A stretch of DNA of 22,674 nucleotides from a virus. The position numbers were made by a program, and so were the translations under genes. The notes under the pieces were generated by a model. The model had not been told where the DNA came from, did not search any database, and saw nothing but the letters and a program-made list of their open reading frames with translations. Shown here one piece after another: positions 1 through 22,674 of this stretch. The stretch covers positions 1-22,674 of IMG/VR virus record IMGVR_UViG_3300032562_000188, one strand, 5' to 3'. Each line of letters begins with the position of its first letter. Position 1 is the first letter of the stretch.

Positions 1-3000
1 AATCGAACTTCAGTAGAAATTTCGGGTGGGTGAATGCCAAACTGGTCGAACATTTCGTTGACAAGTTGGCGTTTTGCTCGTTCCAAATCTTTGACGGATT
101 GTTCACGAAGTCGCTTGAGCATGGCTTTTGCTTCTTCACGGTTCCTAAAGAATTTTGTTTCTCGGACTGGTGCGGGTGTTTCAGGCCCTTTTCTAAACGC
201 CTTGCGGTAAAGGTCTGACGGGGCAAGTTCTTTTTCAAGTTGATCTGCGGTAGGACCAGCGGCAAACGAGCGAGCCGTCAAACTTCCGTCCAATTTGTCG
301 TGAAGCACCATTTTTTCAATCATTTGGTACTCAAGGTCCATCTTGGCGTTTTCATCAAACGTCCGACGAATTTCCTCTTGCAAAGTTTCAATTTCGTTCT
401 TGAGCTTGTTCATTTGGAATTTGACTTCCGGTTGAACAGCTTGCTCCCAAATGTCCGCAGGAGTTCCTTCACGCATCAACTGGTCTGCGGTGGGGGGCGG
501 AATTGACACAAACTTCTTGCCCAAGAAACTGTCACGTTCTGCCTGCTTTTTAGCAATGCTCATTTCAAGACCTTGCTGCAATTTGTAGTGGTCTGGATTC
601 AGTTCACTTTCAGCAGCGGTTGTTTCAGATTCAATTCGGGTCAAGTCGGTTTCAAGTTGCGTACCCTTGTTGACAAGGTTTTCGTACATCTTGGCGTAAC
701 TTGGGTTGGCGCTCAGACGTTTGGATTCAATAGAAGCAATCAACAATTTGTTTGATTTGATTTCCTTTTCGGCAGCAGTTTTCTGTGCTTTCAAAGTTTC
801 TATTTTTGCTTTGTTTTCGGCTTGCTTTTCGTTTTCTTCTTTGAGCGTCGTTTCCAGGTCGTTGATATCTTTACCAAGATTGGTGACATGACGATCCACA
901 ATCTTTCTGTAAGTGGTAATCATGTTTGCCCTAGAACGGATGTAGGTGTCGCCCAACCAACCAGCCAGCATGTTCCGTGGGCCAATGCGGGCGGTGTTTA
1001 GTCCAAGCTCTGAAATAGAAACACGAAGCGCCCAACCAGGGGTAAGCAAAGCAAGAGGTTTGAAAAAACGCTCGTTGATCCATTCGTTGAGTTTGTTAGT
1101 GCCCATAATAAAATCATGCGCTAACAAATCACGAGCACCTACGTCTGCAACACGACCACCAACAATGCTCAAACCTTCATTTTTGAACATGTTGGACATG
1201 AGCTTCCAAGTTTCTTCCTTGATCTCTCTAAAGTCAGGGAGAATAAATGGTTCAATGTGAAGGCCGTGAACACCTGCGGCAAATTCTTTGCCATCACGCT
1301 CAACCATTGAACGCGACGCACCAGAAACTTGCACTGCAAATTCACCACGGGAATCAACGCCCATGCCGCCAAGCCATTCAGAAATGGCGCTGTGCCACGA
1401 CGAGCGGTATTCCTGGTACAGGTTTTCAAGACGCCGCAATTGCGGTTCACGAATGTCATCCAGGTTTTTCAAGGCGGTTTGAAGGTCCATACCCAAATAG
1501 CCCGTGGATCGCTTGAGTGTGCCTTTGTTGGCACGGGTAATTTCTCCCGACCTAAGCAACAATTTGGTAAAGCTTTGGTCAAAATCCTTTTCTACAAGAC
1601 CAAATGTTGCGTTGATGTAGACGTTGGACCAAGCAACCGGATCGGACGTTTCGCTCAAGTATGACAGTACGGCGTTGATCTTGGAAGAACTTTCGCCAGC
1701 CAACTGCATCATTTGTCCAACGGCGTAAATGGATTTGCGGCTTCCAGGTTCAATTATGTCTTTGACAATCTTGCCCGTGTTTTCGTCGTAGCGCATTGCC
1801 TCTTGGCCGAAAAATTCTGACAGCTTGTTGATGGCTGCGTTATCGCCAACTTTTGCTTTGCGAAGAAGCGACACAATGCCAGCGGTGGGCATTCGCACCT
1901 CAGTCAACATCGTCGTGGCGTCGGCTAGATTTGCCAATGTATCAACAAGGGTTTCCCTGGTAGCGCCGTTTTCTTCCATTGCTTTGACAAGTTCAGGAAT
2001 GACCGGAGCCAACGAAGGAAACATTCGATAGATTTTTCCAGCCGTGTCTTTGACTTCTGTTTTGACTACATTGCCGGCGGCGTTTTGCGTTTCAATTTCT
2101 ACAAGTTTGCCCTTTTGTCCGAACCCAGCAATAATGTCCAATGCCCTAGCAACTTGAGTGTTTCGTCCAACTTCGGCTCGAATTTGATCGCCGGACAGCG
2201 CCGCTAGTGAACGACTTGCGGTTAGTTGCGTAGCTTCCCGTTCAAGGCCCAATGCACGGCCACCCATCATTGGCGCTTCAATAAAAGACGTAATGGCGTC
2301 CACGGTGCCAGACAAAAGCGAAACATTCCGGTGAAACAGGAATTGAGAAATGCCTTGACCAATGGTGCCAAGTTGCGCCGTTGGTTTGCGACTGGCATCC
2401 CAAAGTGCTTTATCGTGCCAAATCTGTGGAACTACGTTGGCTCCAAACAGTTCAGGTGCTTGTGTCGCTTCGGCACCAATTTTAAAGGCTTGCCCAATTC
2501 CTCGAACAATTGGGTTACTACCAAATGTTTTTACAGCGGCTTCGCCTTTAGTTGCATTAGCACCAGCCTGCTCTGCCTCGTTCAAGGTTTGTGCCGTTTG
2601 ACCTTCGGCGGTAGCGGTAGCGGTTTGTGATGCGGTGTCGCTTGCGGCAGTTCCAAGATTGGCACCCATTTGACCGGCAATGTCACCTTCGGTTGCCGTA
2701 ACTGCGGCATCGGTTCCAATAGTTGTCGAAAGGTCTGCGCCCATTGCAACACCGGCTGCGGCGGCGTCAGGACCAAGAACGGTCGAACCAACAAGACCAA
2801 GAACAGCACCCGCCAGCATTGGCGTAAGGGCGTTCATCATGCCGTTGAAACCGCCCTTTTCATAGGACATGACTACATAACGGTAAAAATGATTCCAGTT
2901 GTCAAACTGTTGGCCCACCATCTGCAAAAAGCTTTGTTTAGCGTTAGCAACTTGTTGCGGAGTAAGCAAACCCAAAGTAGTCGCTAATAGGTCAGGATTT

Positions 3001-3821
3001 CCCGCACGACCCAATGTTCCACCAACAACACCACGAACGCCTGGTGTTTTTTGGTTTTGGTATTGAGCTTCGTGAACGGCGGTTTCAGCACGTTGCTTTT
3101 CCCACCAATGAAGATTGAAATACTTGTCTTTGAATTGATTTGAAATGTTTGTCAACGTGTCGTGAAATAAAGTTGGCAATCCATAACCGCTGGAACTGCC
3201 GTGATGCAGCATTGAACCGAATGGGTCTTGTGGGTTGATACCACCAATCCAATCTGGCAATTGACGCGTAAACGTATCAAGGCTACCCATTGCGTAGCCT
3301 TCCATGTTTTTCAATCCGGCTGCACTAAGGTTTCTTTCAGCCCAACCGCCAATGCTTTGTCCGACATGACCCGCATCAGTCCACAAACGACTAATTTGGT
3401 TTCCGGCAGATACGTTGCCACCGCCTTCAATACCACCCAAACTTGTTCCGGTTTGTGTTTCACCTAGCCTGTCAATGCCGTAAAAATTTGTGCCCGGCAC
3501 AGATACACCACGTTCGCCGCCCATTGCTTGCGATGTGGTTCCCAATCGGTCAAGCGTTTTCTGTGTAACAACATGTGCAAATGCTTGGTGCACTTGTGGG
3601 TTAGCACGCAAGTGGTCGGTGGCGGTATCAAACAGCGTGTTCGCTAAATGAAAACCAGAAAGCGATTGAGCATTTTCAACAATGTTGCCACCAGCACGAA
3701 CAGCGGCTAATCCCAGGTCGGGGTGATATTTGATTGTCGGTGCAGCCTTGATCGCCTTGTCAAGATTTATTGCGTTCAAGTCGTGAACATTAGGCGGCCT
3801 GTAAATTTCTCCCCCAGGCAT
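1..3821 (-). CDS. Very large virion-associated protein (internal or minor structural), partial, C-terminus off the window
   Basis: The frame stays open from an ATG at 3821 to the window edge: 1273 codons with no stop, so the full protein is longer. The ATG shares one base with the stop of the gene before it (TGATG), so translation is coupled. From the N-terminus I see a Gly/Ser/Asn-rich region; a hydrophobic Gly/Ala-rich stretch at about residues 320-360 that could insert in or cross a membrane; an Ala/Thr-rich stretch at about 365-430; a long mixed region; a segment LTPGWALRVSISELGLN near 925-940; then a long Lys/Glu coiled coil at about 970-1085. Its place right after terminase, portal and a Pro-rich protein is where head-associated, MuF-like or ejected internal proteins usually sit. 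I see no protease or ADP-ribosyltransferase motif that would name it. Structural role is inferred from position, size and composition. Confidence 0.8.
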   Translation of the reverse strand, partial: MPGGEIYRPPNVHDLNAINLDKAIKAAPTIKYHPDLGLAAVRAGGNIVENAQSLSGFHLANTLFDTATDHLRANPQVHQAFAHVVTQKTLDRLGTTSQAMGGERGVSVPGTNFYGIDRLGETQTGTSLGGIEGGGNVSAGNQISRLWTDAGHVGQSIGGWAERNLSAAGLKNMEGYAMGSLDTFTRQLPDWIGGINPQDPFGSMLHHGSSSGYGLPTLFHDTLTNISNQFKDKYFNLHWWEKQRAETAVHEAQYQNQKTPGVRGVVGGTLGRAGNPDLLATTLGLLTPQQVANAKQSFLQMVGQQFDNWNHFYRYVVMSYEKGGFNGMMNALTPMLAGAVLGLVGSTVLGPDAAAAGVAMGADLSTTIGTDAAVTATEGDIAGQMGANLGTAASDTASQTATATAEGQTAQTLNEAEQAGANATKGEAAVKTFGSNPIVRGIGQAFKIGAEATQAPELFGANVVPQIWHDKALWDASRKPTAQLGTIGQGISQFLFHRNVSLLSGTVDAITSFIEAPMMGGRALGLEREATQLTASRSLAALSGDQIRAEVGRNTQVARALDIIAGFGQKGKLVEIETQNAAGNVVKTEVKDTAGKIYRMFPSLAPVIPELVKAMEENGATRETLVDTLANLADATTMLTEVRMPTAGIVSLLRKAKVGDNAAINKLSEFFGQEAMRYDENTGKIVKDIIEPGSRKSIYAVGQMMQLAGESSSKINAVLSYLSETSDPVAWSNVYINATFGLVEKDFDQSFTKLLLRSGEITRANKGTLKRSTGYLGMDLQTALKNLDDIREPQLRRLENLYQEYRSSWHSAISEWLGGMGVDSRGEFAVQVSGASRSMVERDGKEFAAGVHGLHIEPFILPDFREIKEETWKLMSNMFKNEGLSIVGGRVADVGARDLLAHDFIMGTNKLNEWINERFFKPLALLTPGWALRVSISELGLNTARIGPRNMLAGWLGDTYIRSRANMITTYRKIVDRHVTNLGKDINDLETTLKEENEKQAENKAKIETLKAQKTAAEKEIKSNKLLIASIESKRLSANPSYAKMYENLVNKGTQLETDLTRIESETTAAESELNPDHYKLQQGLEMSIAKKQAERDSFLGKKFVSIPPPTADQLMREGTPADIWEQAVQPEVKFQMNKLKNEIETLQEEIRRTFDENAKMDLEYQMIEKMVLHDKLDGSLTARSFAAGPTADQLEKELAPSDLYRKAFRKGPETPAPVRETKFFRNREEAKAMLKRLREQSVKDLERAKRQLVNEMFDQFGIHPPEISTEVR

Positions 3822-4276
3822 CAAACACCAATCACACGGGCAATGGCAGCCATTTCTTGTACGGCTGGCGTTGCATACGGCGAGTTAGAAGCGTTGTCCA
3901 ACAAATCAGAAATCCGTTTTGCGTTTTGAGCAGGGTTAGATGCAATTTGGTTTTGAGCCACCATGCCTGGCGGGTGCGGAGCGGGGTCCCAAAATCCCAA
4001 TGTTCCGGGCGCAGTAAAAGGCTGGCGTTGGTCCGCAGCGCCAGGCGTAGCGGGCGGAGCTTGCGGCGGAGTTGGGTTCGCAACGTGAGTTACCGGTTCT
4101 GGCGTACTGCCCATTGGAACGGCTCGTTGAGCATCTTCAAGCATCCGGCGTTGTCCGTAAGGTTCACCGGGCGCAACGGTAATGGGTTGTGGCCCACGGT
4201 TGTTGAGGTCGGTCCTGTTTGAATAAGCGGTTTGCGCCGCTCCTTCAACCTTACTTCCCTTACCTTTTCTTGGCAT
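3821..4276 (-). CDS. Pro/Ala/Gln-rich small protein next to the portal, function unknown
   Basis: 151 residues. The first ten are strongly basic (PRKGKGSK). Residues about 30-105 are low in complexity and rich in Pro, Ala, Thr and Gln, so probably disordered. The C-terminal 40 residues (from about NAKRISDLLDNA) look able to form helices. The ATG is 12 bp after the portal stop, with a weak purine-rich AGAGAG upstream. The stop overlaps the start of the giant virion protein by one base. I do not recognise a family. Its place between portal and the large structural protein suggests a head-assembly role such as scaffold-like or head-completion, but no domain supports that. Confidence 0.8.
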   Translation of the reverse strand: MPRKGKGSKVEGAAQTAYSNRTDLNNRGPQPITVAPGEPYGQRRMLEDAQRAVPMGSTPEPVTHVANPTPPQAPPATPGAADQRQPFTAPGTLGFWDPAPHPPGMVAQNQIASNPAQNAKRISDLLDNASNSPYATPAVQEMAAIARVIGV

Positions 4277-9439: not shown

Positions 9440-9484
9440 GTTTCCACAGAACATGTGTTCGTCTGTGGACGATGTTGTGGACAA
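9440..9484. other. Cluster of three DnaA-box-like sites
   Basis: The reverse complement of 9476-9484 is TTGTCCACA, an exact match to the DnaA box preferred in high-GC Actinobacteria. The reverse complement of 9464-9472 is TCGTCCACA (one mismatch), and plus-strand 9440-9448 is GTTTCCACA (two mismatches, opposite orientation). The first and third face each other as a TCCACAG/CTGTGGA inverted repeat around the 9449-9460 LexA-like site. Three such sites in 45 bp in a non-coding region suggest a host DnaA-dependent origin or a DnaA-titrating or regulated promoter. Confidence 0.5.
9449..9460. promoter_or_regulatory. LexA (SOS) box-like site GAACATGTGTTC
   Basis: Matches the GAAC-N4-GTTC core of actinobacterial and Bacillus LexA boxes (CGAACrnryGTTCG), including the A-x-G-T centre; the left flank is A instead of C. 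It sits inside the DnaA-box inverted repeat, so LexA and DnaA binding would compete if both occur. It lies about 345 bp upstream of the first gene of the leftward operon. Confidence 0.5.
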
Positions 9485-9497
9485 ATAAGACGAAAGC

Positions 9498-9509
9498 GAA
9501 CAAGTGTTC
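9498..9509. promoter_or_regulatory. LexA (SOS) box-like site GAACAAGTGTTC
   Basis: With flanking bases it reads CGAACAAGTGTTCG, a full match to CGAACrnryGTTCG. The 17-bp sequence GCGAACAAGTGTTCGGT (9496-9512) occurs again, identical and in the same orientation, at 11932-11948. The 8-bp arm CAAGTGTT (9501-9508) is also inverted at 9521-9528 (AACACTTG). Confidence 0.55.
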
Positions 9510-9767
9510 GGTGAATGAGTAACACTTGGCATTACGCGCACAATGCATCCCATTCATGCCTAGAACGCCGCAAGATCGACGCTAGCCCTAGTCTGCACCG
9601 ATTACCCTAGACACCTTAGGAACGTGGCACAGAACGCACTACAGCGCCAAAGAATCGAGAGAATAGGCGAATCGACCGTCGAGATGTTGGATCAGATCGA
9701 CGCCCAAACGCGACAAAGCCGCCCCACCCAGCCCCGAAGGACCAAGCAGGGCGGCCCGCCGCGCAAG

Positions 9768-9938
9768 TTACCGCCACCACCGCCAGACGCACACAGCGAC
9801 GCCAAACAGCGCACCCAGCCCAGCCACGGCCAGAGCATCGAGCCAGAAACCGAACCCGTCTCGCGAGGTCGTCACAGCGCCGCAGGCTAGGCCGATCAGC
9901 GCCCACGCGGAGACAATCTCAAAATGCCGCGCCATCAT
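9768..9938 (-). CDS. 56-residue two-span membrane protein of the amidoligase cassette
   Basis: 56 residues. Two hydrophobic stretches, about 8-24 (IVSAWALIGLACGAVTT) and 31-52 (FWLDALAVAGLGALFGVAVC), with a basic end VWRWWR, predict a hairpin in the membrane. Two ATG codons in a row (9938, 9935) follow GGGAGG, a good ribosome-binding site placed inside the end of the amidotransferase gene; the frames overlap by 20 bp. That overlap and the shared GC-rich composition tie it to the amidoligase/amidotransferase pair. It could anchor the enzymes at the membrane or act as a holin-like or immunity protein; the sequence does not decide. Confidence 0.65.
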   Translation of the reverse strand: MMARHFEIVSAWALIGLACGAVTTSRDGFGFWLDALAVAGLGALFGVAVCVWRWWR

Positions 9939-10704
9939 CCCACCCTCCCGAATCGACGGTCTCTAAAGGTTCGGTCTCGCAGTGGCACGAATAGTTGCCG
10001 CACCAGACGCAGACGCCGCACCACTCGCACTCGTCAAAATCTGGATCGACGAGGCCGTAGCACCACGGGCACTCGAGAGCCCCGCCGTTCAGCTCGAGAG
10101 GTTCAGCCTTGCCGCCGTAGTAGCCCCAGCTCGCGCGAGGCTCGCATGACGAGTTCGAGAACCAGAAGCCACCGTCCCAGTAACCCGCCGACTCATTGAC
10201 GATCGCCAAAGGTGGCAAAGCCGGATCGGACGAGACGAAGACCAACTTGGAGCCCGTGGCCCAGTCGCTCATCATGTCGCGCACGTGAGGCTCCAAGAGC
10301 GCCCGAGTTCCACCCATCGCAGGGAGAACGTCCCTAGCGAACGTGCCCGTATCGCTCAGGTGGTCCGCAGGAGTCACCGGTAGCATCCCGTTATGAAGAA
10401 GCACCGTCTTAGGCTCCCCGGCGATGGCGTGAGGATGACAACCCGACAGATCAACCGCGCCGCTAGTGGCGATGCGAGCGTGCCATGCCCACGCGACCAC
10501 TCGACGACCGAGTTCGTCCACCTTGCGCTCAAGCATTTCTACGGCCTCAACCGGCGACATAGTGCGCCTGGTATGAAGCCGTAGATCCTTCCGAGTCTCG
10601 AACACCAACGCGAAACCGAACCCGTCAGGGTTGGCGATAGCGCCCCGCTCGAGTACGTCCCGATCCGGGATCGTTGGACCCTCGCCGCAGATAATCACGC
10701 ACAT
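9919..10704 (-). CDS. Class II glutamine amidotransferase (Ntn hydrolase) with C-terminal zinc ribbons
   Basis: 261 residues from the ATG at 10704; the frame is open further upstream, but only this start places Cys at position 2, as GAT-II enzymes need for their N-terminal nucleophile after Met removal. Typical motifs follow in order: MCVIICGEG (1-9), NPDGFGF (25-31), WHARIAT (74-80), a His-Pro-His at 90-92 and LLHNGM (102-107). Such domains release ammonia from glutamine or act as related amide hydrolases. Residues about 211-243 hold eight or more cysteines in CxxC pairs, predicting one or two zinc ribbons, an unusual addition. The ATG overlaps the amidoligase stop by 10 bp. I infer that it supplies ammonia to, or trims the product of, the amidoligase. 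Confidence 0.85.
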   Translation of the reverse strand: MCVIICGEGPTIPDRDVLERGAIANPDGFGFALVFETRKDLRLHTRRTMSPVEAVEMLERKVDELGRRVVAWAWHARIATSGAVDLSGCHPHAIAGEPKTVLLHNGMLPVTPADHLSDTGTFARDVLPAMGGTRALLEPHVRDMMSDWATGSKLVFVSSDPALPPLAIVNESAGYWDGGFWFSNSSCEPRASWGYYGGKAEPLELNGGALECPWCYGLVDPDFDECEWCGVCVWCGNYSCHCETEPLETVDSGGWDDGAAF

Positions 10705-11804
10705 GGCGAAACCCCCGCAGGTGAAACGAACGACGCCGCGAGGGTATCGGCGGCCTGAAAACGCCCGCCCCCGAGAACGTGGACCGCATGAGGCCACCGA
10801 TCCGAAGCCCGCACGAAATCGACAAACCGCCCCCACTCGAGCGCGCCCAGAGTGATGTCATGGGCGCTAATGGTGCCCGAGTAGGCGACGAGCGCGTCCG
10901 TCAACTCGACAGCCGCGAGCACTCGACCAGCGGCAAGCGATGGTCGAAAGATGCGAAGTTCTACCGTCGAATAGTTGGACAGGTTCACCGCGTCATAGTG
11001 GCCGCCCCCGAGCTGGCGAGCCTTCTCAACCACAGACCGCGAACTCAGTTCCTCGAAGGATGCGCAGGTGGATTCCCGGCCGGCGAAATCGACCAGCCCG
11101 CCCTTATTCCTTGAGACGAGCAGAGCGAATGCCGCGACGCTGGTCACCGATCGAAACCCGTCCCGTGAGACGTGGACGTGAAGCCCACACGAGGAACGAT
11201 CCCAAGCCCGCGCCTGCATCCCTCGCAACTCCCAAAGCATGGATGCGAGTTCGTCGCCGTATTCCTGCCACGATTCAAGAGAACGAGGATGAAACACTAT
11301 TTCCGGCCCTACGGCTAGAGATGAGTCCGATTTCTGATAGTGGACCCGTTCTCCGATGCCGTGCCCGTTCAGGTACTCAAGTACCTCGACAATCCTTTCG
11401 GGGTGGCTCTCGATCTCAAGCTCGACGCCGAAGTACCGCGGCCCCTCCCCGTAGAAAATGGGCGAAGGCTTAAAACCGTATGAATGGAGAAGTCCGCCGT
11501 ATGTCTCATCCTCCTCATCGAATCCATAAGGGCAATCGTGACCATCGTGGACATTCTCATCGCACTGGTGGCAATGGTAATAAGAACTATCGAAACAGTC
11601 TTCGCACACAAGGAAAGCGTCCCCAATCGAGTGCCCCGCTGATATCGCGTGAAACTCGGCGCAATCGTCGCAATAGAAAGCGAAACCGTCGCAACAGTCT
11701 TCGCACCAAGTTTGGTGGCCCTGCGAAGTGTTTACCCCGTAGTGCTCGCATTCTTGATCATGGTGCGCGTAGTTGCACCGCTCACAGATTATTTCTTCAC
11801 TCAT
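10695..11804 (-). CDS. Phage amidoligase (glutamine-synthetase-like COOH-NH2 ligase) with N-terminal multi-zinc-ribbon domain
   Basis: 369 residues. Residues 1-95 hold about fourteen Cys and several His in CxxC/CxxH pairs (CERC, CEDCC, CDDC, CEDC, CHQC), predicting a chain of treble-clef or ribbon zinc modules. Residues about 120-345 carry the signature of the putative amidoligase family: FGVELEIE (125-132), Asp160 and Glu168 in a KSDSSL...GPEIV segment, GLHVHVS (207-213), HYDAVNL (269-275) and TVELRIFRPSL (280-290). Members are predicted to join a carboxylate to an amine using ATP. The ATG at 11804 follows AGGGG. The gene is the first of a three-gene overlapping unit. The substrate cannot be read from the sequence; cell-wall peptide or a protein is the usual proposal for the family. 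Its GC content is visibly higher than that of the structural genes. Confidence 0.85.
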   Translation of the reverse strand: MSEEIICERCNYAHHDQECEHYGVNTSQGHQTWCEDCCDGFAFYCDDCAEFHAISAGHSIGDAFLVCEDCFDSSYYHCHQCDENVHDGHDCPYGFDEEDETYGGLLHSYGFKPSPIFYGEGPRYFGVELEIESHPERIVEVLEYLNGHGIGERVHYQKSDSSLAVGPEIVFHPRSLESWQEYGDELASMLWELRGMQARAWDRSSCGLHVHVSRDGFRSVTSVAAFALLVSRNKGGLVDFAGRESTCASFEELSSRSVVEKARQLGGGHYDAVNLSNYSTVELRIFRPSLAAGRVLAAVELTDALVAYSGTISAHDITLGALEWGRFVDFVRASDRWPHAVHVLGGGRFQAADTLAASFVSPAGVSPCA

Positions 11805-11933
11805 TAGTTACCCCTGACGGCCGAAGGACACACGCCCCCGAAGCCGACTAGATCACACCACACCCAGCGCCCGAATGCAAGCACCAAACCCCAAGCCCCG
11901 CTAGGCAAACGCACCACCGACGAGCCGCAAGGC

Positions 11934-11945
11934 GAACAAGTGTTC
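11934..11945. promoter_or_regulatory. LexA (SOS) box-like site GAACAAGTGTTC upstream of the amidoligase
   Basis: Reads CGAACAAGTGTTCG with flanks, a full match to CGAACrnryGTTCG, and is part of a 17-bp sequence identical to 9496-9512. It lies about 130 bp before the amidoligase ATG and touches a 16-bp perfect hairpin (11946-11961). Its position at the head of the cassette suggests operator function. Which repressor binds it (host LexA or a phage protein) is unknown. Confidence 0.55.
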
Positions 11946-12023
11946 GGTCGCAATCGCGACCATCGACAAGCCCGCCGAAGTCGAGCGGGCGCTCGCCCAC
12001 ACCCCAGGAGCAGGAGTTGAGCA

Positions 12024-12063
12024 AACTTGGCTTGGCGTCCGGTCTAACTTGGCTTGGCGTCCG
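12024..12063. repeat. Tandem 18-bp repeat, 22-bp period
   Basis: AACTTGGCTTGGCGTCCG occurs at 12024-12041 and again, identical, at 12046-12063. Each copy contains an internal TTGGC direct repeat. It lies between the terminator and the LexA-like site. Two exact copies one period apart suggest a binding site for a dimeric protein or recent slippage. Confidence 0.6.
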
Positions 12064-13577: not shown

Positions 13578-14155
13578 TCTGGCCCCACCTTCCTAAGCAA
13601 AGTCCAAGCTCTGATGGCATATCCAGCCCCCGTAGTGATGCCGTACACATTCACAATCTTCATTGGCTTGCGTGGCATTGGCACTTGAAAATGTAGAAAC
13701 CCATAAAGTCCTCCTGGCTTCAGAAGTCGAGCAGCTTCCTTGAGTATCTGCCCAGGCTTGGGATAGTCCTTCTCGGTGCCATAAAGATTTTTTGCGTATT
13801 CCTCCGAGTAGGGGGGGTCGGCAAGAATCCAATCAAACGATTCATCTGGAAGCGGTACGTTGCGACAATCGGCAACAATGTCGGGTTTGCGTTCTTCACG
13901 AATATCAACCCTCACGCCAGTCACCATGCTTCCTGAACACAAATGCAGCACTTTTTTTTCGTCCACTGGTTTGCCACCAATTGATTCCATTTCTCGGTAG
14001 GCCCATTCCACAAAGCGGAGAGGATACCCCCCCCCGTCCGAAAAAGGTTCAAAATGTAAGGATGACTTGGGGTAGCCAAACATTACGGGGTGTCCCGCAC
14101 CTTTGGCTTTCTTCCCAGCATTGGGGCCAAAACTATGTTTCGTTGCGGCGGTCAT
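13574..14155 (-). CDS. SAM-dependent methyltransferase with DPPY motif (putative DNA methyltransferase)
   Basis: 193 residues. VLHLCSGSMVTG (69-80) is the glycine-poor SAM loop, VDIREE (83-88) the acidic end of strand 2, and ILADPPY (110-116) the catalytic motif IV found in N6-adenine and N4-cytosine DNA methyltransferases. AARLLKPGG (141-149) begins the next strand. It is small, with no obvious target-recognition domain. It could protect phage DNA from restriction or act on another substrate. The ATG at 14155 overlaps the upstream stop (ATGA), and the stop overlaps the HNH start. There is no restriction enzyme partner unless the HNH gene serves as one, which is speculation. Confidence 0.75.
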   Translation of the reverse strand: MTAATKHSFGPNAGKKAKGAGHPVMFGYPKSSLHFEPFSDGGGYPLRFVEWAYREMESIGGKPVDEKKVLHLCSGSMVTGVRVDIREERKPDIVADCRNVPLPDESFDWILADPPYSEEYAKNLYGTEKDYPKPGQILKEAARLLKPGGLYGFLHFQVPMPRKPMKIVNVYGITTGAGYAIRAWTLLRKVGPE

Positions 14156-14736
14156 AAAAACTCGCTCGTGTCGTTGTCAAATGGGTCAAACTCGGCATTG
14201 GCGTAGAGAGTGGTGGTGCCGTCACCATTTGAGACCTCGGTTATCTGCCAGTCGTCGTGCTGGGTAGCGAAGGCGTTGCCCCTAGTGAGTCGTGTGTCAC
14301 CGGAGACCCGAGCGGTGCCGCAGACCCAAGCGTCACCGTAGACCCGAGCGTTGTCGTAGACCTGAGCGGTGCCGCAGACCCAAGCGTCACCGTAGACCCG
14401 AGCGTTGTCGTAGACCCAAGCGTCACCGTAGACCCAAGCGTCACCGTAGACCCGAGCGGTGCCGTAGACCCGAGCGTCACCGTAGACCCAAGCGTCACCG
14501 TAGACCCAAGCGTCACCGTAGACCCGAGCGGTGCCGGAGACCCGAGCGTCACCGTAGACCCGAGCGGTGCCGGAGACCCGAGCGTTGTGTCCGACGTAGG
14601 CGCTCTCATTGACGGTGGCGGTGCCGGCTACCCATCCACCTCCGTTTCGGTGTTTGTGGGCTGGAACTGGTCCGTTGCCATCGTTGAAATCGTAGGTGGT
14701 CACTCTGTCTCCTTTGTTGATCGGGGTGCGCTTCAC
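14152..14736 (-). CDS. Left-handed beta-helix (hexapeptide repeat) protein
   Basis: 194 residues from a GTG at 14736 that overlaps the upstream stop (GTGA). A second GTG at 14703, giving 183 residues, has a stronger AAAGGAG site and may be the real start. About 19 consecutive hexapeptides fill the middle, mostly V-[YSC]-[GD]-[DTN]-A-[RWQ], for example VYGDAWVYGDAR. A Val every six residues with Ala at +4 is the pattern of a left-handed parallel beta-helix. The C-terminal about 45 residues form a separate domain ending in an acidic tail. Hexapeptide enzymes are usually trimeric acyltransferases, but no transferase active site is visible. Similar repeat proteins occur in phages and prophages without a known function. 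Confidence 0.8.
   Translation of the reverse strand: MKRTPINKGDRVTTYDFNDGNGPVPAHKHRNGGGWVAGTATVNESAYVGHNARVSGTARVYGDARVSGTARVYGDAWVYGDAWVYGDARVYGTARVYGDAWVYGDAWVYDNARVYGDAWVCGTAQVYDNARVYGDAWVCGTARVSGDTRLTRGNAFATQHDDWQITEVSNGDGTTTLYANAEFDPFDNDTSEFL
14290..14631. repeat. Coding tandem repeat, 18-bp unit
   Basis: About 19 units of 18 bp, most differing at only a few positions (plus-strand unit like CCGTAGACCCAAGCGTCA), matching the hexapeptide repeat of the protein on the other strand. Near-identity at DNA level, including silent positions, points to recent expansion or ongoing slippage and recombination rather than old divergence. Confidence 0.9.
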
Positions 14737-14987
14737 CAGAGATGATCCACTTCTTCTACATAATCCCCGTCCCAATCGTCAGGCGGATCGAAATCGTCGG
14801 CGTGGCAACTGCACTCGCACTCCTGACAGTCGCAATCGTCCTTGTGGTCGCACTTGTCGCCGTTCTCGTCAATCAATACGGGCTTCTCGGCATCAGGGCA
14901 AGGACAGTCCTCGCAATAGTCCGGGCTAATCTCGCCAACGTAGATCAAGTCTGATCGGGTCATTCCATCGGGGTAGTTACTTGGCAT
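14733..14987 (-). CDS. Cys- and Asp-rich acidic protein, likely metal-binding
   Basis: 84 residues, strongly acidic. Cysteines cluster in two groups: CEDCPCP at about 25-31 and CDHKDDCDCQECECSCH at about 46-62, with several Cys in alternating positions. Many Asp/Glu surround them, ending DDWDGDYVEEVDHLW. The spacing resembles metallothionein-like or multi-metal sites more than a single zinc finger. The ATG overlaps the upstream stop by 11 bp, and the TGA overlaps a GTG start of the beta-helix gene. Function unknown; metal storage or protein mimicry of DNA are possibilities without direct support. Confidence 0.7.
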   Translation of the reverse strand: MPSNYPDGMTRSDLIYVGEISPDYCEDCPCPDAEKPVLIDENGDKCDHKDDCDCQECECSCHADDFDPPDDWDGDYVEEVDHLW

Positions 14988-19534: not shown

Positions 19535-20055
19535 CAAGCGTCCTTGTACGGGGCCTTGGGTTGCGTCAGCCAAGCAAGTTCGGCTGGCGTGATTTGAAAT
19601 GGATCGGTGGGGCAGTTCCACCCCCCGTGTTCCCAACTGCGAGCGACCAGGGCCGAGCAGATCAAGGCGTCACCATGACGCCGGAAGTCGAAAGCGATCC
19701 ACTTCGGGGTCAGCAAGTTGATGACGATGGAGAAAATCGTGGCTACCGAATACTTGATGCCGTTCTGTGCAAGTGCGTAGTCGATGGCTTTGATTCTGTC
19801 CACGCCGTTTGGGATGGGGCGGATGGTCGTGTAGCCGCCAGGTGCTACGTCCTGTCGAAGGACAAGTTCGCCACGCCGACCCATCTGCATACACCACACA
19901 TCACCGTTTGAGTCAACGCCGGTGACAATGGCTGCGTGGTTCCATCGCTTGTAAGGTCGCCACGATGGTCGGAGCCATTGGCCGAAACGGATCAGGGTAG
20001 CAAACGCACCCTTGCTATGGGCGAGAACTAAATCGCCCGGCTGAACGTCACTCAT
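19534..20055 (-). CDS. YiiX/NlpC-P60-like papain-fold hydrolase
   Basis: 173 residues. QPGDLVLAHSKGAFATLIRFGQW (5-27) begins the fold. WNHAAIVTGVD carries the likely catalytic His40, and DALICSALVARSW (129-141) carries the likely catalytic Cys133. His before Cys is the circularly permuted order seen in the YiiX group of NlpC/P60 relatives. Members cut peptide or amide bonds in cell-wall peptides, or act on lipids. The central IFSIVINLL stretch is hydrophobic. It overlaps the glycosyltransferase stop (ATGA). In this block it may help wall degradation or modification; that is inferred from position. Confidence 0.75.
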   Translation of the reverse strand: MSDVQPGDLVLAHSKGAFATLIRFGQWLRPSWRPYKRWNHAAIVTGVDSNGDVWCMQMGRRGELVLRQDVAPGGYTTIRPIPNGVDRIKAIDYALAQNGIKYSVATIFSIVINLLTPKWIAFDFRRHGDALICSALVARSWEHGGWNCPTDPFQITPAELAWLTQPKAPYKDA

Positions 20056-21287
20056 GCAAAGTTCCTCCCTGCAACTGGCGGTCCATCCTTGACTGCGACC
20101 AGGTTAGCGCAAACGTAGGAGATGTTGTGGGATTCATGCCAGTCGGAGGGGTAAAAGGTGTGGAGTCGTGAAATCTTGAAGTCAGTCTCAATCCGTGGGA
20201 CGTACTTCCGCATGTTCTCATCGGTGTAGTACCAAAAAGAATTCTCGTTCCAGTACGAAACATGAGTCGGGTCTTGAAACGCACCCCTGCCATCCGTCGA
20301 TGGGGTCAGGCTCAGGATCATCCCTCCGTGGGCAAGTACCCGGTATAGCTCGTTCATCAAGCCGATCTTGTCGGGGATATGTTCAAAAAAATCCACGGCC
20401 CGGATGACGCCTACGGAGTTGTCGGGGTACGGCAGACCTTCGCTGATATCACATTTCATATCAACGTCGCCCTGGATGTCCACGGAAATGTAGCCAGGAG
20501 GCGAGTTGTGCGCCCCGCCGAGGTCAAGCGCCAGCAGGTTCTCACACTTGGCCCAGGCTAAAGCGTTGGCTTGGACGTTCTGATCGTAGAGTTCCACGGT
20601 CTTGCGTTGGATTCTCAGGTTTTTCTCAGGATCGGTCTGCGTGTTGTGTTCGTGAATCCGTTGCTTGTAAAGCAATCGGTTGAGTTGCAGGAACGGACCG
20701 TGCTGGTAAAGCCGGTTCATCAGGTCTTGATCGTCGCATATGTCTAACGTCCCGTCATAGCCCCCTACAGCGTCGTATGCGGCCCGCAAAAAGGCTCTGG
20801 GGTGGTTGGGTGCATACCATATATACGACACGTTAGAAGGCAAAGGAGCGAATGAACGGGCTTCGAGGTAGCCATCGTCGGTTTTGTTGTAGGTCCAGCC
20901 GTGGGTGGAATCGAACAGGTCCAGGTTCGGAGAGCCATCCCCATCCATCTGAGCCGTGTTCCCATATACGAAGATAACTTCGGGTTTCTCGTCAAAGGCC
21001 CTGACGATTTCTTCTAAGGCGTTGGGTTCAAGGGTATCGTCGTGGTCCAATTCAACCAGGATGCGCCCTTCAGATGCGGCGACAGCTTCACGCTTCAAGG
21101 CCCCGATGTTCAGTTCCTTGGATTCGTGGACCCACACCCGCTCATCGTTGGGCTTAGCCCACTTCGCCCCTTGGTTCAGCAAGACGACCCATTCCCAGTT
21201 CTCGTAGGTCTGAGCTTTCAGGGACGCGTAACAGTCGTCGAGCCATTCAGGATTGTGTGAGGGGGTAAAGACCGATACAAACGGCAT
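20052..21287 (-). CDS. Glycosyltransferase family 2 - SAM methyltransferase fusion
   Basis: 411 residues from the ATG at 21287 (GGGG upstream). Residues 1 to about 235 form a GT-A fold: VSVFTPSHN start, a Rossmann-like strand WVVLLNQ, the metal- and nucleotide-binding ELDHDD (79-84), and ICDDQDLMNRLY (183-194) as the catalytic-base region. Residues about 250-400 form a class I methyltransferase: LLALDLGGA (251-259), YISVDIQG (266-273), FFEHIPD (300-306), ELYRVLAHGGMILSLTP (313-329). Such fusions suggest that a transferred sugar is then methylated, or that two steps on one glycan are linked. Targets could be virion or host surface glycans. It lies between lysis-type membrane proteins and the papain-fold enzyme. 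Confidence 0.85.
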   Translation of the reverse strand: MPFVSVFTPSHNPEWLDDCYASLKAQTYENWEWVVLLNQGAKWAKPNDERVWVHESKELNIGALKREAVAASEGRILVELDHDDTLEPNALEEIVRAFDEKPEVIFVYGNTAQMDGDGSPNLDLFDSTHGWTYNKTDDGYLEARSFAPLPSNVSYIWYAPNHPRAFLRAAYDAVGGYDGTLDICDDQDLMNRLYQHGPFLQLNRLLYKQRIHEHNTQTDPEKNLRIQRKTVELYDQNVQANALAWAKCENLLALDLGGAHNSPPGYISVDIQGDVDMKCDISEGLPYPDNSVGVIRAVDFFEHIPDKIGLMNELYRVLAHGGMILSLTPSTDGRGAFQDPTHVSYWNENSFWYYTDENMRKYVPRIETDFKISRLHTFYPSDWHESHNISYVCANLVAVKDGPPVAGRNFA

Positions 21288-21298
21288 AGCCCCACAGT

Positions 21299-21715
21299 TT
21301 ACCTCGTTCTGCCGATTCTCCTGATTTCGTTCTGGCGTTGTGCTTCTTTCCATACCCGGAGCATAGCCACCTCTAACTCCATTGCACGGATGCGAGCGTC
21401 ACGTTCGGCGTCCTCGGCTTCTTCTTCTTCGTTGTCAATTCTTTGGCTGAGGATAGTGGCGTGGCGGGTTACGAAAAACCCTGTAACCAAAATCGGGATG
21501 ATACCCAGCCACCCCCAAGCGCCGTAGTTCGTAGTCAATCGAGTAGCCGCCACCGACAGGATAGTGATTTTTGCTAGATCGCCCACGGCATCCATGAGTC
21601 CAGCCAGGTTGCCACGGCCTGAGTTGATCGCCCGCACCAGGACGGTACCAACCCCGTCCATTACGGCCATTCCGATAGAGCCAACTACGGCGTAGAGGAT
21701 GATTGCCCATGTCAC
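21299..21715 (-). CDS. Membrane protein with cytoplasmic-type coiled-coil tail (lysis block)
   Basis: 138 residues from a GTG at 21715 that overlaps the preceding stop (GTGA). Hydrophobic segments at about 3-26 (WAIILYAVVGSIGMAVMDGVG) and 68-84 (WGWLGIIPILVTGFFVT) flank an amphipathic middle. The last 50 residues are charged and helical, with an acidic run (NEEEEAEDAERDAR). Two spans plus a charged tail is holin-like in layout, but so are other phage membrane proteins. Three such proteins in a row follow the endolysin. Confidence 0.7.
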   Translation of the reverse strand: MTWAIILYAVVGSIGMAVMDGVGTVLVRAINSGRGNLAGLMDAVGDLAKITILSVAATRLTTNYGAWGWLGIIPILVTGFFVTRHATILSQRIDNEEEEAEDAERDARIRAMELEVAMLRVWKEAQRQNEIRRIGRTR

Positions 21716-22077: not shown

Positions 22078-22400
22078 TAGACCAAGCCTTCGTGCGCACC
22101 GAGATGGCGTTCGAGTTTCAAGCCAATCTCGTCCATGTCCTCCCTGATGGTGTCTAGTTCAGCCTTGATGTCTTTCTGCCTTTCACCGATATTTTGTAAC
22201 TTGGTTTCGATTCGGTTGACCGCATCTGCCATGCTTGATCCACCGTTGGGCGTGACTGCGCTTCTGACGGTAGTGATCCTTTCTTCAACGCTTCTAACAA
22301 TCTGATTGTGTCCCCACCGAAGAACGGCAACGATGAACCCCGCGACAAATCCTGCACTAGCAAGCAGGCCAAGCCAGAAGTTCCACGAAGAAGCAGGCAT
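22077..22400 (-). CDS. Small membrane coiled-coil protein, holin-like (DUF2746-like layout)
   Basis: 107 residues from the ATG at 22400, which overlaps the endolysin stop (TAATG). One hydrophobic span covers about 7-28 (NFWLGLLASAGFVAGFIVAV). A basic, Val-rich stretch and a flexible TPNGGSSMADAVNRIE segment (50-65) come next, then a coiled coil to the C-terminus. A single N-terminal span, a Gly/Ser-rich turn followed by DAVNRIE and a helical tail resemble the small actinophage membrane proteins encoded after lysin genes. Holin function is inferred from layout and position. Confidence 0.75.
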   Translation of the reverse strand: MPASSWNFWLGLLASAGFVAGFIVAVLRWGHNQIVRSVEERITTVRSAVTPNGGSSMADAVNRIETKLQNIGERQKDIKAELDTIREDMDEIGLKLERHLGAHEGLV

Positions 22401-22674
22401 TACACGCCAAGCAGCAGGCTCCAAGTGTTCGGACCGACAACGCCATCGACGCCACCAGCAACCTTGAAGAAGGCTTGAGCGTTCTTGACAGCAAGCGTCG
22501 TCGCAGGACCGAATACACCGTCAACGGTGAGGGCCTGACCGAACTTGTCCTTGAGCAATGATTGAACCGACTTGACATGACCGTGATCGGTGCTACCGGC
22601 TGAAATGGTTGGGAGTTGCACATCGCCTCCTGTGGCTTGTGGGGTTGCTGGGGTTGGGACTGAACCGGCTGCGG
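22400..22674 (-). CDS. Endolysin, C-terminal peptidoglycan-binding domain (partial; N-terminus off the window)
   Basis: The frame is open to the right edge: 91 codons to the stop. A GTG at 22621 could serve as a start, but the frame continues upstream as an Ala/Pro/Thr/Gly linker (AAGSVPTPATPQATGG), typical between catalytic and binding domains, so I read it as one cut protein. The rest is a PGBD-1-type domain with two half-repeats: VKSVQSLLKDKFGQALTVDG, VFGPATTLAVKNAQ, then VDGVVGPNTWSLLLGV; the D-G-x-x-G-P-x-T pattern is characteristic. It anchors the enzyme on cell-wall peptidoglycan. The catalytic domain cannot be seen. The stop overlaps the start of the holin-like gene. Confidence 0.85.
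   Translation of the reverse strand, partial: AAGSVPTPATPQATGGDVQLPTISAGSTDHGHVKSVQSLLKDKFGQALTVDGVFGPATTLAVKNAQAFFKVAGGVDGVVGPNTWSLLLGV

Follow-up and report, generated by a model that had tools for sequence, protein, structure and literature searches.

The window, that is, the whole stretch of DNA analysed, is an entire virus record of 22,674 bases. Two further contigs (L002 and L003) are 99.9% identical to parts of it, and an open reading frame (ORF) of 1274 amino acid residues at positions 3–3824 continues beyond the contig end, which places that end of the record within a large gene. A WhiB protein is encoded in the window (2.6e-16), and WhiB-type genes were found in 60 of the 77 related loci. 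Since WhiB genes are a marker of actinophages (PMC10202952; PMC6802176), they point to actinobacterial hosts for the virus and its relatives. The cassette analysed here and the elements around it are as follows:

10695–11804, minus strand: glutamine synthetase (GS)-like amidoligase (PF12224) of 369 residues with an ATG start (Pfam, AF2, and fold comparison)
11526–11786, minus strand: ligase residues 7–93, predicted zinc modules of LIM-like (treble-clef) type, in tandem at the N-terminus (CxxC motifs and their conservation)
10761–11450, minus strand: catalytic domain of the ligase, residues 119–348 (invariant residues)
9919–10704, minus strand: class II glutamine amidotransferase (Ntn fold) of 261 residues with catalytic Cys2 (AF2, Foldseek, and profiles)
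9979–10071, minus strand: C-terminal eight-cysteine module of the amidotransferase, residues 212–242 (cysteine conservation)
9768–9938, minus strand: two-span membrane protein of 56 residues (two hydrophobic segments, equivalents in relatives)
11933–11946, no strand assigned: palindrome CGAACAAGTGTTCG, which resembles an SOS box and lies 129 nt before the start of the ligase gene
9497–9510, no strand assigned: second copy of the palindrome, separating the cassette from the genes that lead to TerL
9448–9461, no strand assigned: third copy with one mismatch, 49 nt from the second

The ligase and amidotransferase genes overlap by 10 nt and the amidotransferase gene and the 56-residue ORF by 20 nt, all on the minus strand; these three overlapping frames had been described in an earlier note on the window, and their coordinates were correct when checked. 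The amidotransferase begins with MCVI.. at position 10704, and the alignment of 78 homologues disfavoured an upstream GTG at 10836 as the start.

The ligase matched PF12224 with an E-value of 1.4e-5 and 25.6 bits, above the gathering score of 22, and all 39 aligned ligase homologues matched the same family. The AF2 model of the ligase, made with an alignment of viral homologues, had a pLDDT of 86.4. Its residues 119–352 were superimposable on YbdK (VIA Z 12.2) and on glutamine synthetases (Z 11–12), and Dop, PafA, and GmaS were among the Foldseek matches of the model, the structural search being dominated by the catalytic domain. E128, E130, D160, S162, E168, H209, H211, R243, N274, E282, and R284 were invariant. 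The profile search that had been proposed earlier thus gave a match above the gathering score, and together with the GS-like fold and the active-site residues it confirmed the identity of the amidoligase.

In the amidotransferase, the GAT-II residues C2, R77, T80, G82, H104-N105-G106, and D118 were 99–100% conserved in 78 viral sequences. The protein scored E 0.012 and 15 bits against Pfam GATase_4, under the 23-bit cut-off of the model, and its profile matched PurF and GlmS with the RxAT.G and HNG motifs aligned. The AF2 model, again made with an alignment of viral homologues, had a pLDDT of 83.5, and its Foldseek matches (E 1.9e-7 to 8e-4) included GlmS (1.9e-7, to the glutaminase domain), EgtC (1.6e-4), and PurF, with TM-scores of about 0.4–0.5. 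The protein also matched phrog_25883, an unnamed phage family (7e-18). The full GAT-II motif set with Cys2 and the Ntn fold bear out the assignment to the class II amidotransferases, and structure prediction of the two enzymes returned the GS-like and Ntn folds that the earlier note had expected.

Cysteine-rich modules are present in both enzymes. The CxxC motifs of the ligase start at residues 7, 34, 45, 67, and 78, and C7, C10, C34, C37, C45, C48, C67, C70, C78, and C81 were 95–100% conserved in the 78 viral sequences. The ligase profile matched LIM structures (2cup, E 4e-4), and PF00412 (LIM) was matched by 3 of 39 ligase homologues (best 7.8e-6), the window ligase itself giving no match; the finger-to-finger spacing of 7 residues differs from that of classical LIM domains. 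A 52-nt internal repeat in the ligase gene, with a spacing of 99 nt, fits tandem fingers. The amidotransferase cysteines C212, C215, C226, C229, C232, C235, C240, and C242 were invariant in 36 aligned homologues, and conservation of the eight was at least 95% in the 78 viral sequences; the module is conserved in actinobacterial-type members only. This C-terminal module is common to the window and Marvin gp106, but it is absent in L005, L006, L007, L010, and L011 and in Clostridial amidotransferases, although the Clostridial ligases keep LIM-like modules. The amidotransferase module is therefore dispensable for pairing in general, since it is missing in the Clostridial partners and several phage pairs. 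The phage PF12224 ligases L008 and L010 are without N-terminal zinc modules.

The conservation of these cysteines across relatives indicates that the modules are conserved features of one subfamily, and the sequences suggest that both bind zinc. The Cys-rich modules reported earlier are thus real, but they are not unusual additions, and the term zinc ribbon is imprecise for the ligase, whose module is LIM-like by profile (2cup and PF00412). Modules of this LIM-like kind point to a macromolecule, perhaps a polypeptide, as the partner. A full-text literature search combining LIM domain and amidoligase, outside which the Iyer 2009 and Marvin papers fell, returned no paper.

The distribution of the pair was analysed with ligase relatives that had been selected on the ligase alone. 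A profile scan of IMG/VR gave more than 540 relatives, of which 80 were kept; in 79 of 79 viral loci with continuing DNA, a GAT-II ORF starts between −37 and +36 nt from the ligase stop. The same ligase–amidotransferase order occurs in Marvin, MEP402, ctgrD200, and an Acinetobacter phage. L008, a C. difficile phage ligase homologue with an unrelated next gene and no CxxC, was excluded from the pair counts. The set from bacterial genomes comprised 80 ligase loci, most of them from Clostridia and a few from Nocardia, Allokutzneria, and Micromonosporaceae; 68 plus a further 4 of these 80 have a GAT-like gene, which usually adjoins the ligase. No fused ligase–amidotransferase protein was found among 171 loci. 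The distance matrices of the two enzymes were correlated (r 0.91), also after removal of the TerL component (partial r 0.86; permutation p 5e-4). The claim that pairing with GAT-II genes recurs in genomes therefore holds (79 of 79 viral and about 72 of 80 bacterial loci), and the enzyme pair is a fixed unit across phages and bacterial mobile elements.

The genes near the Clostridial pairs, whose names come partly from sequence reading, include those for a serine recombinase (49 of 80 loci), a tyrosine integrase-like protein (19), and DUF3846 (13), and in L132, an actinobacterial locus, a TraG/TrwB-type coupling protein is encoded near the pair together with an ArdC-like anti-restriction protein (ArdcN domain). 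Since recombinases, integrases, or conjugation genes are often nearby, mobile elements appear to carry the pair. In Nocardia sp. SYP-A9097, tandem copies of the pair (L153 and L165) lie beside actinobacterial CRISPR-repeat-like stretches, with a NACHT protein near one copy. L092, a 3.3-kb contig binned as Rhodobacteraceae, is probably a wrongly binned phage contig, because its ligase scores 520 bits against the actinophage-type profile.

The third gene behaves differently from the pair. In a start-codon-aware screen with a random-position control, two-span proteins overlapping or abutting the amidotransferase stop were found in the window/L002, L012, L013, L015, and L016, the closest relatives, that is, in 5 of 82 loci; these are all five loci of the window lineage in which the DNA is intact (the near-identical L002 and four more), and none was found at this position in the other 77 tested loci. 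With 2% expected at random positions, occurrence in all five lineage loci is above chance, and the mutual sequence similarity of these proteins is weak. The gene trio described earlier is thus real but specific to the lineage of the window. Likewise, the two-span membrane protein is present, whereas membrane recruitment is not a general property of the pair, which the membrane protein accompanies in this lineage only. Elsewhere, other small genes follow the pair, such as one for a conserved 87-residue protein without a Pfam match, located after the amidotransferase in 43 of 77 phage loci (among L017–L090).

The palindrome CGAAC-N4-GTTCG occurs twice in the window, against 0.08 expected. It forms the core of the Mycobacterium tuberculosis recA and dnaE2 SOS boxes (PMC8607333) and is compatible with the Streptomyces LexA motif (PMC9380542). 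In 659 kb of related viral loci, some of which are near-duplicates, it was found 25 times, compared with 0–2 times for each of ten palindromes of the same composition. Of the 25 copies, 22 lie upstream of the ligase at a distance of 1.4–1.9 kb, the majority in the gap next to TerL and often in tandem about 50 nt apart, and SOS-box-like palindromes (CGAACAnnTGTTCG) are present in L018, L029, L032, L033, L051, L056, L080, and L083. The copy at 9497–9510 is kept in both L012 and L013; that at 11933–11946, before the ligase, is conserved in neither. Because of the near-duplicate loci and the lack of conservation of the ligase-proximal copy, control of the pair by LexA is a lead rather than a result. 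The non-coding DNA upstream of the ligase also contains two perfect copies of AACTTGGCTTGGCGTCCG, 22 nt apart (12024–12063).

We consider it fairly probable that the two enzymes constitute a glutamine-dependent amide-bond-forming unit and that this unit is an accessory means of host takeover for phages and other mobile elements. The complete GAT-II glutamine site, the GlmS/EgtC fold, and the GS-like fold lead to such a joint reaction, which is also favoured by strict pairing and co-inheritance, and we infer a glutamine-fed amide-ligase reaction with good support. The amidotransferase would hydrolyse glutamine at Cys2 and pass the ammonia to the GS-like ligase, which would use ATP to convert a carboxylate into an acyl phosphate and then into an amide. 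Points against this reading are that many GS-like ligases use amines rather than ammonia, that some GAT-II-fold proteins such as EgtC are hydrolases, that the 171 loci gave no fusion of the two enzymes, and that pairing does not in general require the amidotransferase zinc module. The two proteins would form a physical complex, in which the zinc modules, LIM-like in the ligase and C-terminal in the amidotransferase, may join the enzymes, bind a macromolecular, probably polypeptide, substrate, or do both. In this actinophage lineage, the operon has gained the small membrane protein, which possibly brings the enzymes to the membrane, and the operon may be under the control of an SOS-type operator.

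The main alternative concerns the target. Acting at the membrane, the pair could amide-modify the host cell envelope, either the stem peptide of peptidoglycan or a surface polymer, and thereby block superinfection or alter lysis. The pair is found in actinobacterial phages and Clostridial elements, whose hosts amidate peptidoglycan, and the lineage of the window has the membrane protein. Peptidoglycan amidation in such hosts is carried out by MurT/GatD and AsnB/LtsA. However, the membrane protein is missing from the other 77 of 82 tested loci, the pair is not adjacent to the endolysin-like gene at 22400–22621, neither enzyme shows a peptidoglycan-binding domain, and carriage by integrative and conjugative elements is not obviously explained. 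Earlier literature proposed this target for the amidoligases of phages (Iyer et al. 2009, as cited in PMC10580990; PMC11318856); none of the present results favours cell-wall modification, and the target is rather unlikely on balance.

Somewhat less likely still is a counter-defence role, common to phages and conjugative elements, in which the pair modifies either a defence protein or nucleic acid. The presence of the pair on both kinds of element, the ArdC-like protein near it in L132, and zinc modules that could bind nucleic acid fit such a role, but no base-modification genes were recognised beside the pair, ArdC occurs in one locus only, and neither enzyme matched a PADLOC family. Similarly low is the probability that the amidotransferase-like protein acts not as an ammonia donor but as a hydrolase, removing or trimming what the ligase has added or processing gamma-glutamyl groups. 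EgtC, one of its closest solved folds, is a GAT-II-fold hydrolase and not an ammonia donor, and Dop, a GS-like deamidase, is among the best Foldseek matches of the ligase; against this, the GlmS/PurF glutamine-binding motif set is fully conserved, and strict pairing and co-inheritance favour a joint reaction. As no other biosynthetic gene is consistently linked to the pair and the LIM-like modules suggest a macromolecular partner, we give equally little weight to the synthesis of a small metabolite or signal, a proposal made for Marvin (Mageeney et al. 2012, as cited in PMC10580990).

Returning to the glutamine-dependent unit, a more specific version of it is speculative and on the whole doubtful: the pair would be an amide synthase of two enzymes scaffolded by zinc, which tailed phages exchange with integrative or conjugative elements of Gram-positive bacteria. 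As a takeover or counter-defence tool common to both, it would give a host protein or a component of the envelope a yet-undescribed amide modification; in actinophages its operons would have SOS-type operators, and in one lineage a small protein of its own would anchor it to the membrane.

Phage amidoligase/amidotransferase pairs have reportedly been noted since 2009. As such pairs have already been described in Marvin and MEP401/402, the window pair is a variant of them. Marvin gp105/gp106 (Marvinvirus) have the same order as the window genes, with 33% identity for the ligase and 30% for the amidotransferase, and both proteins carry CxxC modules, the amidotransferase spacing being that of the window. 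They differ in a 79-nt gap in place of the gene overlap, a longer ligase C-terminus, and no adjacent two-span gene by the start-codon-aware screen. The Methylophilales phages MEP401 and MEP402 also carry an amidoligase and GATase pair (PMC10580990). Its order and gene overlap are as in the window, but a long N-terminal extension precedes the only two CxxC motifs of its ligase, and its amidotransferase has none. The Stenotrophomonas phage StenR_269 has a GS-like ligase, a GAT-II protein, and an amidoligase in one region as in the window. This cluster, which we take to be of the phiEco32 type, differs in order and in containing an ATP-grasp ligase and a gamma-glutamyl cyclotransferase, and its amidoligase scores only 28 bits against the profile. 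Neither of these two additional enzymes was seen among the scanned window proteins, which represent part of the ORFs of a contig that may be a fragment.

YbdK, glutamine synthetase, and GmaS share the GS-like catalytic fold of the ligase (Z about 11–12), as do Dop and PafA by Foldseek, but their identity to it is 8–15%, and the aligned part contains no LIM-like modules. We know of no GAT-II partner for any of these enzymes. MurT/GatD combines a class I glutaminase with a Mur ligase, whereas the window pair is of class II with a GS-like ligase and does not belong to that system. PADLOC profiles gave no match to the ligase or the amidotransferase.

The Clostridial and actinobacterial mobile-element pairs (L093–L171) consist, as in the window, of a LIM-like amidoligase with a GAT-II gene directly after it; in the Clostridial ones, the amidotransferase differs by lacking the C-terminal cysteine module. 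A DUF4314 gene is interposed between the two enzymes in about ten Ruminococcus-type loci (L095, L104, L109, L112, L123, L128, L130, L131, L139, and L152); it shows no homology to the 87-residue phage gene, and a single family for the two was ruled out. In the literature searched, which excluded Iyer 2009 and the Marvin paper, we found no description of the zinc modules, the mobile-element spread, the lineage-specific membrane partner, or the SOS operators. The zinc-bearing version is an obligate pair with hundreds of members in phages and bacterial mobile elements, which makes the question of its target testable. With M. smegmatis as a host, Marvin-type phages, whose pair has zinc modules in both proteins, make this question experimentally tractable.

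Other genes of the window were also noted. At 20052–21353, a family 2 glycosyltransferase and a methyltransferase domain are joined in a single ORF. The gene at 14152–14775 encodes a 207-residue protein with about 16 imperfect six-residue repeats, corresponding to an 18-nt/54-nt tandem array at 14296–14585, and the protein is possibly a left-handed beta-helix.
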